A DNA stretch of 22,106 nucleotides from a virus. This document shows positions 5,882 through 11,962 of this stretch, piece by piece. Location: the IMG/VR virus record IMGVR_UViG_3300021127_000037, positions 1 to 22,106 of that record. One strand, 5' to 3'. The notes beneath the pieces are model-generated. The model had not been told where the DNA came from. It did not search any database and worked only from the letters and a program-made list of their open reading frames with translations. A program made the translations under genes and the position numbers. Within the stretch, counting starts at the first letter, position 1. Every line of letters starts with the position of its first letter.

Positions 5882-5928
5882 AAAATCCTTGATAATTAGC
5901 CGGAGCGAAATTATCAAGGATTTTTTTA
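5882..5928 (+). terminator. Intrinsic terminator after the 364-residue structural gene
   Basis: A 16-bp perfect stem (arms 5882-5897 and 5909-5924) encloses an 11-base loop and runs straight into a T7 tract on the plus strand. It lies 28 bases past the stop at 5853. The A-tract on the other side means it could also slow minus-strand transcription arriving from 5926. Confidence 0.88.
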
Positions 5929-6426
5929 AAACATTTTTCTTATGTCTAAGTTGTCTGGTATTTTACCAGAATCTTTAACGAAAAAAGCACATAACGGGGA
6001 CTCGCCGCCTGATAATGGCACAGCAAGTAAATGACCATTTTTTAATTTTGGAAAATACCATTTAACATCCGGCCATGTGTTTACAATTTCTAATCTTAAA
6101 AAGCTAGGCATAAAACCGTTTATAGGATTAAAACAAAACACATCAAAATCTTTATCCATAAGGTATACAAGCGGCATTATTTCCAAGTCGCCCATATTCA
6201 TATCGCCAATTACAACGCTCCAATCAAGAGGCATCTGTATATTATATTTTCCAATTCTAATATCAATACAGGGGCTATTAAAACTTTCCAGAAATATCAG
6301 TGGAAGAAAAAAATAGTCAACATCATTTTGATTTGAGTAATCTAAAACGCAATATCGTAAATCGTCTACCTTATCTGGAATTTGAGTTATAGAATATGCC
6401 TTGTTATCGTGAGTAAGTATTTTAAT
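5926..6426 (-). CDS. Hypothetical conserved-looking protein with apparent ATT start codon
   Basis: The frame continues well upstream of its first internal ATG at 6234, without a stop, back to an ATT at 6426. That ATT sits seven bases after a near-perfect CAGGAGA Shine-Dalgarno sequence. Read from there, the product is 166 residues beginning (M)KILTHDNKAYSITQIPDKV. The 64 extra residues look fully protein-like (YFFLPLIFLESF, then CIDIRIGKYNIQMPLDWS). The C-terminal half has WYFPKLKNGHLLAVPL and ends CAFFVKDSGKIPDNLDIRKMF. No ATG, GTG or TTG lies in frame near the Shine-Dalgarno sequence. The pattern recalls a conserved protein of marine T4-like phages, but its function is unknown to me. A small hairpin overlaps the Shine-Dalgarno sequence. 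Confidence 0.75.
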   Translation of the reverse strand: MKILTHDNKAYSITQIPDKVDDLRYCVLDYSNQNDVDYFFLPLIFLESFNSPCIDIRIGKYNIQMPLDWSVVIGDMNMGDLEIMPLVYLMDKDFDVFCFNPINGFMPSFLRLEIVNTWPDVKWYFPKLKNGHLLAVPLSGGESPLCAFFVKDSGKIPDNLDIRKMF

Positions 6427-6433
6427 TGAATTT

Positions 6434-6462
6434 CTCCTGGCAAATGATGCCAGGTATTTACA
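6434..6462 (-). promoter_or_regulatory. Late-type promoter plus hairpin over the ribosome binding site of the ATT-start gene
   Basis: The minus strand reads TGTAAATA (6455-6462), one mismatch from the T4 late consensus. It runs directly into a 7-bp stem CCTGGCA/TGCCAGG (6434-6452) with a 5-base loop. The 3' arm contains part of the CAGGAGA Shine-Dalgarno sequence. A transcript started about six bases past the octamer would lack most of the 5' arm. Confidence 0.5.
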
Positions 6463-6487: not shown

Positions 6488-7327
6488 TCAGTAAGTTATT
6501 TTTTTCATATTAGATGGATATTGAACATCTGCATAAAATTTTTTACGTTTTAATAAATGCCTGTTGGAAAATTTACATCTACTGGCTATATCATAAATCT
6601 CAACTGCGTCCTTGTCATCTGCTTTTCTTAGTCCTCTGCCAATGCTTTGTATAACTCTTACAAAACTTTTGCCTGGTTCTAACAACACTAGATTGAAAAT
6701 TCTATTAATCGATATGCCTGTAGAGGTAGTACCATACGTGGCTATCATAATAGCATTATCAGCAAAATTTATTTCGTCATATAATACTTTACGTTTAGTA
6801 CTCTTCATTTGGCCGCTTATGAAGGTTGAATTTGGTATCAATTCTGAAAGAAGTTCACCTGTTTCAATTCTATCTATCAACACCAACGTATTTCCACTTT
6901 TAGCAATTTCTAAAATTCGTTTTGCCAACCAACCTATACGATGTTTGTTTGTGGTTAAAAACTTTAGTTCTTCTTGGTAATTTTTGTAAATTATATCTTC
7001 TTGTGTTTGTTCTATATTCACGTGACACTGTGCTAGATGCCCTTGCTCTTGCAATTCTCTAGCAGTAAGTCTGCCTATCATTGGCCCTATGGCACTGAAT
7101 AAACTTGCTTGATTATATTCCTCTTCCGGAATTGTGCCTGTGAGGCCCCAACGTATTGGAATATTTGAAAACGTGTTAGTTAGCAGCCCGTGCAATACAT
7201 TCATGTTTTTCACACTATGACAGTTAGACACTACGGCCCGTTCTACTATATAATTGTGATCATCCTGTACATGTAGGTTGTAAACTTGATCAGGTTTACT
7301 GATTTCTCGGCGACTTAGCAGTTTCAT
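6488..7327 (-). CDS. uvsW: UvsW helicase C-terminal fragment with C-intein
   Basis: The product is 279 residues. Residues 1-35 are a split-intein C-half: block F (QVYNLHVQDDHNYIVER) and block G ending AVVSN, where the terminal Asn is present but the usual preceding His is Ser. Cys36 is the +1 residue. From there the extein reads CHSVKNMNVLH, the second half of the DECH box, then helicase domain 2 with WGLTGTIP (motif III), NTLVLIDRIETGELL (motif IV), MIATYGTTSTGISI (motif V) and IQSIGRGLRK (motif VI). UvsW is the T4 branch-migration and R-loop unwinding helicase. It must be trans-spliced to the 9254-8244 product to give a helicase of about 484 residues, close to T4 UvsW. AGGA lies seven bases before the ATG, and the start overlaps the endonuclease gene by 32 bases. 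Confidence 0.93.
   Translation of the reverse strand: MKLLSRREISKPDQVYNLHVQDDHNYIVERAVVSNCHSVKNMNVLHGLLTNTFSNIPIRWGLTGTIPEEEYNQASLFSAIGPMIGRLTARELQEQGHLAQCHVNIEQTQEDIIYKNYQEELKFLTTNKHRIGWLAKRILEIAKSGNTLVLIDRIETGELLSELIPNSTFISGQMKSTKRKVLYDEINFADNAIMIATYGTTSTGISINRIFNLVLLEPGKSFVRVIQSIGRGLRKADDKDAVEIYDIASRCKFSNRHLLKRKKFYADVQYPSNMKKITY
7223..7327 (-). other. Split intein C-half, UvsW (35 residues)
   Basis: These codons encode blocks F and G of an intein, ending Ser-Asn directly before the +1 Cys that restores DE-CH. It is the partner of the N-half at 8247-8534. The Ser in place of the usual penultimate His is seen in some active inteins. Confidence 0.88.
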
Positions 7328-10992: not shown

Positions 10993-11962
10993 TTTTGATA
11001 TACTCCTTTACCATTTTAATTGATTCTAGCATGTTATCTGATTCCCAAACTACTATAGTATGATACCCTCTGGTATTCAACATACACTGTTGTTTGTTTT
11101 TATCTCTGTCCCATATTTCTTGTGCTGTTAAATTTGTTTGTTTATGTAAGTATTCAGAATTATATTTTTTTGGATTACAATGCCAATAGTCTCCATAAAA
11201 TTCAACACAAAGATTAAATTCTGGGACAACAAAATCGAAAAAATAATAACAATTAAAATTTGAATCTAAAATTCCATATTCACCATTTTCATTGCAGGCA
11301 CTATAAATTTTGCAGCCAGCAAATATATTGCTTAATTCTAGAAAAAAGTTATTTGCCTTTTCTGAATTATGTCTATTTTTAAATTTTTTAGACCATAACT
11401 TTCGTCCTGCTACTTCTCCATGATTGTTAATATACCCATCTAGTGTATAATTTATTTTTCTAGATTCACATAGAGCATTATATTTCAAAGTTCCTTCAGT
11501 TTCTCCAAATTTTGATATAAAATATTGCAAAGACATATTATCAGAGCGTTGCATAATGTATGATTTAGCCTCATCCTCACTCATTCCATGTTCCATCCAA
11601 TATTCTTTGCAAAATGGAGATCTACGTTTTCTTTCAACCGTATCATATTTTTCTAATCTCAGTTGACTATTAGCATGTTGCACTATAGAAACTTGCTTGG
11701 TAGCATTTTCCATAGTGTATCCCTTCTTTATCCAATAATCAACGCTACGCGGACTTCGAGATTTCTGAAGTTGAGATATTTTTTCTTGCGATTCCTGCAA
11801 TGACAATCCTTTTTTTAGCCAATATTCAGCCGAAGTTTGACTGATTTTTTTAGGCTGTTTTAACTTTCTGTTGTTTTTGCACAATGATGAACATACATAT
11901 TGTATAGTCATTATACTATCTTTTTTTCTTATCATTTTTCCGCATTCAACACATGGTTTCAT
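10967..11962 (-). CDS. Free-standing Vsr-like homing endonuclease in the second uvsX break
   Basis: I start this at the ATG at 11962, nine bases after GGAGGG; the frame is open further up. The product is 331 residues. It begins with a zinc knuckle (Cys4, Cys7, Cys24, Cys28), then tandem 'EYW-x-KKG-x-x-x-E-A' DNA-binding-like repeats (for example EYWLKKGLSLQES, DYWIKKGYTMENA, EYWMEHGMSEDEA). The C-terminal nuclease domain has the Vsr-type pattern FFDF...CVEFYGDYWHCNP with Asp, Glu, Asp and His, then WDRDKNKQQCMLNTRGYHTI. This family is known from fractured phage genes with split inteins. Its start signals are locked in an 18-bp hairpin with a late promoter in the loop. Confidence 0.87.
   Translation of the reverse strand: MKPCVECGKMIRKKDSIMTIQYVCSSLCKNNRKLKQPKKISQTSAEYWLKKGLSLQESQEKISQLQKSRSPRSVDYWIKKGYTMENATKQVSIVQHANSQLRLEKYDTVERKRRSPFCKEYWMEHGMSEDEAKSYIMQRSDNMSLQYFISKFGETEGTLKYNALCESRKINYTLDGYINNHGEVAGRKLWSKKFKNRHNSEKANNFFLELSNIFAGCKIYSACNENGEYGILDSNFNCYYFFDFVVPEFNLCVEFYGDYWHCNPKKYNSEYLHKQTNLTAQEIWDRDKNKQQCMLNTRGYHTIVVWESDNMLESIKMVKEYIKNVATKNQN

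Follow-up and report, generated by a model that had tools for sequence, protein, structure and literature searches.

An ATT start codon and a predicted late-promoter hairpin switch at a phage gene of the phrog_11279 family

The bacterial gene infC starts with AUU, which is read under IF3 control. In Streptomyces, the GTC start codon of sigR is also read under IF3 control (PMC5472188). In phage T4, the genes e, soc, 49, and I-TevI have a late promoter within a hairpin that hides the Shine-Dalgarno (SD) sequence (PMC3014915, PMC2988022). We describe here a phage gene at which a near-cognate start codon appears to be added to a switch of the T4 type. The gene lies in a virus sequence of 22,106 nucleotides (positions 1 to 22,106 of IMG/VR record IMGVR_UViG_3300021127_000037), which we call the window, and all results come from comparative sequence analysis and computed folding.

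As in T4 e, soc, 49, and I-TevI, the late promoter core of the window gene lies in or just before a hairpin that hides the SD, the start codon, or both, the 5′ arm of the hairpin is predicted to be missing from the late RNA, and the gene is downstream of a replication/recombination gene that is possibly transcribed earlier. The switch itself is a known T4 device. Unlike the T4 examples, the switch in the window is predicted from sequence, the window subclade adds a near-cognate start codon, and the gene product is neither a lysozyme nor an endonuclease. Like infC and sigR, the gene has a non-AUG start at a conserved position, one base off AUG and fixed by homologs, but it is a phage gene whose codon varies among relatives (ATG in many), it has a very strong SD, and its product is, as far as we could see, no translation factor.

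On the minus strand of the window, a C-terminal piece of the UvsW helicase (6488 to 7327; phrog_9690/phrog_16 DNA helicase, with an intein C-terminal signature) has its stop at 6488 and is followed by a late promoter octamer, a hairpin, an SD, an ATT codon, 165 sense codons, and a stop at 5926. This UvsW piece is presumed to be the source of read-through RNA into the gene (5926 to 6426; 166 codons plus stop), the product of which belongs to phrog_11279 (E = 6e-51), a family of unassigned function, and has a predicted HINT fold. Relatives were found in the jumbo phages Sinorhizobium phage Phosso (64%) and Agrobacterium phage Atu_ph07 (50%) and the PA5oct group (48%), with homologs at about 33% in the RaK2/121Q/GAP32 group; in the regions examined, they lie directly or one gene after a helicase gene. 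When the protein of Vibrio phage 2.275.O was used as the query, no relatives were retrieved. A virion role found no backing in the main text of the CBB paper, which makes no mention of CBB_283, the homolog in phage CBB. Both UvsW (9254 to 6488) and UvsX (14623 to 10465) on the minus strand appear to be fractured genes: the two intein signatures, N-terminal and C-terminal, fall on different open reading frames, with endonuclease-like genes between them.

The ATT start codon occupies positions 6424 to 6426 of the minus strand. In homologs from dozens of contigs, the alignment begins exactly at this codon as residue 1, in a column that holds ATT, ATA, ATC, CTG, GTG, TTG, or ATG. The original prediction held that no ATG, GTG, or TTG is available in frame at this end of the gene, and none occurs between the ATT and an in-frame stop 48 nt upstream (identical locus L001). 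Across 140 distinct loci, the column contained ATG in 108, ATT in 12, ATA in 5, ATC in 1, CTG in 3, GTG in 4, and TTG in 4, and it was misplaced in the other 3. One ATT locus (L110) was left out because of an in-frame ATG 15 nt upstream, leaving 20 non-canonical starts (ATT, ATA, ATC, or CTG); in most of these, an in-frame stop lies 15 to 69 nt upstream with no intervening canonical start. Their sources are many different metagenomes and a single isolate, Vibrio phage 2.275.O (AAGGAGGATAGGGTT-ATT), in which the annotation of NVP2275O_010 begins at an ATG that lies 36 nt past the likely ATT start (L084:2501-2537). Because homologs align exactly from the ATT codon and 20 distinct sequences have non-canonical codons, we conclude from the comparison that ATT is the true start and not a sequencing error. 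Close relatives of these sequences carry ATG at the same column, and the best tree, in which many forks are weak, has eight changes between canonical and non-canonical starts. ATT starts had been described as very rare, which holds as a general statement, yet this family has acquired non-canonical starts repeatedly. The literature searched contained no report of ATT starts in phage genes, nor of conserved ATA, ATC, or CTG starts, which leaves their absence unproven; the recurrent non-ATG starts of the phrog_11279 family are new.

In a relative, the 452-kb contig G001, a scan for an SD plus start codon over 400 kb returned a single ATT match, the phrog_11279 gene, and no genome-wide use of non-ATG starts was seen. 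No special initiator tRNA was detected within the window, and one tRNA-Met was present in the 400 kb of G001. At L234:1051-1206 and L223:11695-12033, the contig also holds a tmRNA and two tRNAs with CUA anticodons; ARAGORN called these two tRNA-Pyl, and they are possibly amber suppressors. Its GC content at 20 to 80 kb (L219 to L221) is 0.55 to 0.61, versus about 0.44 to 0.52 elsewhere, and this region may be a foreign block or reflect a chimeric contig.

The SD of the window gene, AGGAGA (6433 to 6438, minus strand), has a computed anti-SD duplex energy of −7.4 kcal/mol and is kept in relatives with non-canonical starts. The predicted gap of seven bases to the ATT is correct from AGGAG but is 6 nt from CAGGAGA, the motif for which it was given. 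Duplexes of −7.0 kcal/mol or lower were found at all 20 non-canonical starts, versus a median of −3.05 kcal/mol at ATG starts, and a strong SD is mostly absent from ATG homologs. After clustering at 80 to 95%, the association between SD and start class ranged from 7/7 versus 0/17 (Fisher P = 3e-6) to 19/19 versus 1/60 (P = 2e-17). On the tree, SD strength mostly shifts with start class and hardly ever in the opposite direction, the pairs being too few for significance. The upstream gene is overlapped or abutted by 52 of 94 ATG members and by no non-canonical member. If RNA is assumed to start six bases after TAAATA, leaders of 3 to 6 nt would result in eight ATG relatives (L026, L027, L029, L034, L038, L041, L042, and L049). 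Leaderless RNAs appear to be AUG dependent, according to work cited in PMC5622118, and the pairing of short leaders with ATG and no strong SD would fit this need.

The near-cognate start codon is probably a separate, constant brake on translation, partly offset by the strong SD. The codon could instead be a product of neutral drift, in which AUG decays without selection as a brake because the SD is strong and little of the protein is needed. We regard drift as a serious contender, at somewhat less than even odds, given that the codon varies among ATT, ATA, ATC, and CTG and that stronger SDs tend to compensate for weak starts in bacterial genomes (PMC5622118). Against it are the recurrence of non-canonical starts in this one gene (the eight changes on the best tree) and the near absence of such starts elsewhere in the 400 kb of the relative. 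Drift would bear only on how the start codon is interpreted and does not conflict with a timing switch.

Directly before the hairpin is a T4-type late promoter octamer, TGTAAATA (6455 to 6462, minus strand), which differs by one base from the T4 octamer TATAAATA; the predicted RNA start is at about 6449. Its core, TAA[AG]TA, lies within 60 nt of the start codon in 34/34 distinct sequences of the window clade, versus a background of 3.2%, and other window genes are preceded by it as well. The core takes the form TAAGTA, a putative promoter, in six relatives (L027, L034, L038, L041, L042, and L049). A similar motif, ATAAATA, was predicted before late structural genes of the RaK2-like phage CBB (PMC5259590). 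Late promoter use and the RNA start site at the octamer are inferred by analogy with T4. Since the octamer is absent from six relatives with non-canonical starts (L051, L060, L067, L075, L084, and L114), the start codon and the switch are separable.

The hairpin (minus strand) consists of a 5′ arm, CCTGGCA (6448 to 6454), a loop, TCATT (6443 to 6447), and a 3′ arm, TGCCAGG (6436 to 6442), which covers the first part of the SD. Both the octamer and this stem had been proposed from the window sequence, and both were borne out: the fold has an energy of −14.5 kcal/mol (z = −4.0; 0 of 200 shuffles were as good), and in an alignment of ten members 96.7% of cells were paired, versus at most 46.7% when the arms were slid, with two-sided changes in three of six pairs. 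Arms in the clade include CCTGGCA/TGCCAGG, CTCCTGA/TCAGGAG, ATGCTGT/ACAGCAT, TTGAC../..GTCAA, and CTACCA/TGGTAG, and in most hairpins the 5′ arm lies ahead of the predicted RNA start, with the SD or start codon under the 3′ arm. Pairing across the predicted RNA start had a median z of −2.8 in the clade and was not clearly above shuffles in L020, L027, L041, L042, and L049. The median was −0.18 for a set of 33 further late promoters in these phages, most of which lack such a hairpin.

An RNA beginning at 6450 formed no stable stem. Opening the stretch from SD to start codon was computed to cost 8.9 kcal/mol in the long RNA and 3.0 in the late RNA, a difference that exceeded 2 in 35 of 35 cases and was larger than at other late promoters (P = 1.5e-8). 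The late RNA is predicted to lack the 5′ arm for RNA starts 4 to 9 nt after TAAATA; the switch prediction held for starts at 4 to 7 nt in 34/34 sequences and at 8 to 9 nt in 30 to 31 of 34. Because the predicted late RNA start is inside the 5′ arm, the hairpin should act only on uvsW read-through RNA. The suggestion that expression is held down twice needs revision: the start codon would be the constant brake, and the hairpin is predicted only on read-through RNA. Among the controls, the strongest case was an endonuclease-like gene at 11962, whose SD is covered by an 18-bp stem (12018 to 11960, minus strand) with TAAATA in its loop; this is the I-TevI arrangement (PMC2988022). At two further genes with TAAATA, the start would be hidden in read-through RNA: L020:1220 (a difference of 8.1 kcal/mol) and the minus strand of L038 at 1355 (9.7 kcal/mol).

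Given the match to T4 e, soc, 49, and I-TevI, the octamer and hairpin probably form one timing switch. It is improbable that the hairpin is a protein operator, for which the protein-bound hairpin upstream of the T4 gene 43 start offers a precedent (PMC3014915), or a terminator or processing site after uvsW. Pairing and position relative to TAAATA persist although the sequences of stem and loop vary, a pattern unsuited to a sequence-specific operator, and the stem is not followed by a run of U.

Other placements of the translation start fare worse. Initiation farther upstream, be it at an in-frame CTG at 6453 within the 5′ arm or at a different codon, is very improbable: no stop intervenes between that CTG and the gene, but it has no preceding SD, it precedes the predicted late RNA start, its frame is not preserved in relatives (27 nt here versus 28 in L002), and in L016, L067, and L075 a stop lies 15 to 18 nt upstream of the start. 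It is hardly credible that the real start is the first in-frame ATG, at 6234 and 64 codons downstream, which gives the sole frame (102 residues) listed under ATG, GTG, or TTG starts, or that ATT is a misread ATG, given that codons 2 to 64 have a dN/dS of 0.04 to 0.09, versus 0.05 to 0.08 for the rest (comparisons without saturated dS), and that ATT, ATA, and ATC recur at the same column across many independent contigs. Codons 2 to 64 and the rest are under the same purifying selection, and the original prediction of protein-like sequence above the ATG, together with its proposed check by homolog alignment, is upheld: homologs do not align only from 6234.

An AlphaFold (AF2) model of the window protein (pLDDT, 87.6) matched HINT chains with Z up to 12.1, and the 72 chains with Z of at least 5 were all HINT among the matches listed. 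A second AlphaFold model, from an alignment without the window's clade, also matched HINT (Z = 11.8). The predicted fold is thus like that of inteins and HINT proteins such as Npu DnaE, Ssp DnaE, and Hedgehog. Unlike inteins, the gene is free-standing, and residue 1 of both models aligns with intein residue 6, so that the N-terminal nucleophile (Cys, Ser, or Thr) is absent; no C-terminal His-Asn is conserved in the alignment, in which C146, F149, and K151 are conserved near the end. By these tests, the protein does not qualify as a splicing intein. No intein match was found in Pfam, NCBIfam, or PDB sequences, and hhalign gave no match to the Npu DnaE intein or the window's UvsW intein. A sequence-level link to inteins was dropped, and the link rests on the fold. 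Judging from the models, the gene probably encodes a HINT-fold protein that does not splice; descent from an intein is plausible, and the modeled intein-like fold is new. We think it rather unlikely, as a more elaborate idea, that near-cognate starts in this jumbo-phage gene family were selected as an IF3-sensitive volume control atop the late-promoter hairpin switch, the product being a free-standing HINT protein derived from an intein minus its first residues, with the start codon replacing the catalytic cysteine region.

The comparisons establish the start position, the conserved octamer, the covarying hairpin, and the trade-off between SD and start codon; from these we infer the timing and low output of translation. 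Read-through RNA from uvsW would carry the whole hairpin, and because this would hide the SD, the gene would be silent early in infection. At the late stage of infection, transcription by the phage's late RNA polymerase would begin within the 5′ arm, some six bases past TAAATA, and the resulting RNA, unable to form the hairpin, would leave the SD free for translation. The ATT would be read by initiator tRNA, aided by the strong SD, and the near-cognate codon would limit the output. We assign this explanation as a whole, comprising ATT start, timing switch, and limit on output, a probability of roughly 0.82.

The phrog_11279 gene occurs in many giant viruses that infect bacteria, and its family is a natural series in which different start codons are matched with different SD strengths. 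The annotation of Vibrio phage 2.275.O suggests that gene callers miss ATT, ATA, ATC, and CTG starts. A free-standing, apparently non-splicing HINT protein, as modeled here, raises a further question that is accessible in an isolate. The switch of T4 gene e would extend to jumbo phages that are distant from T4.
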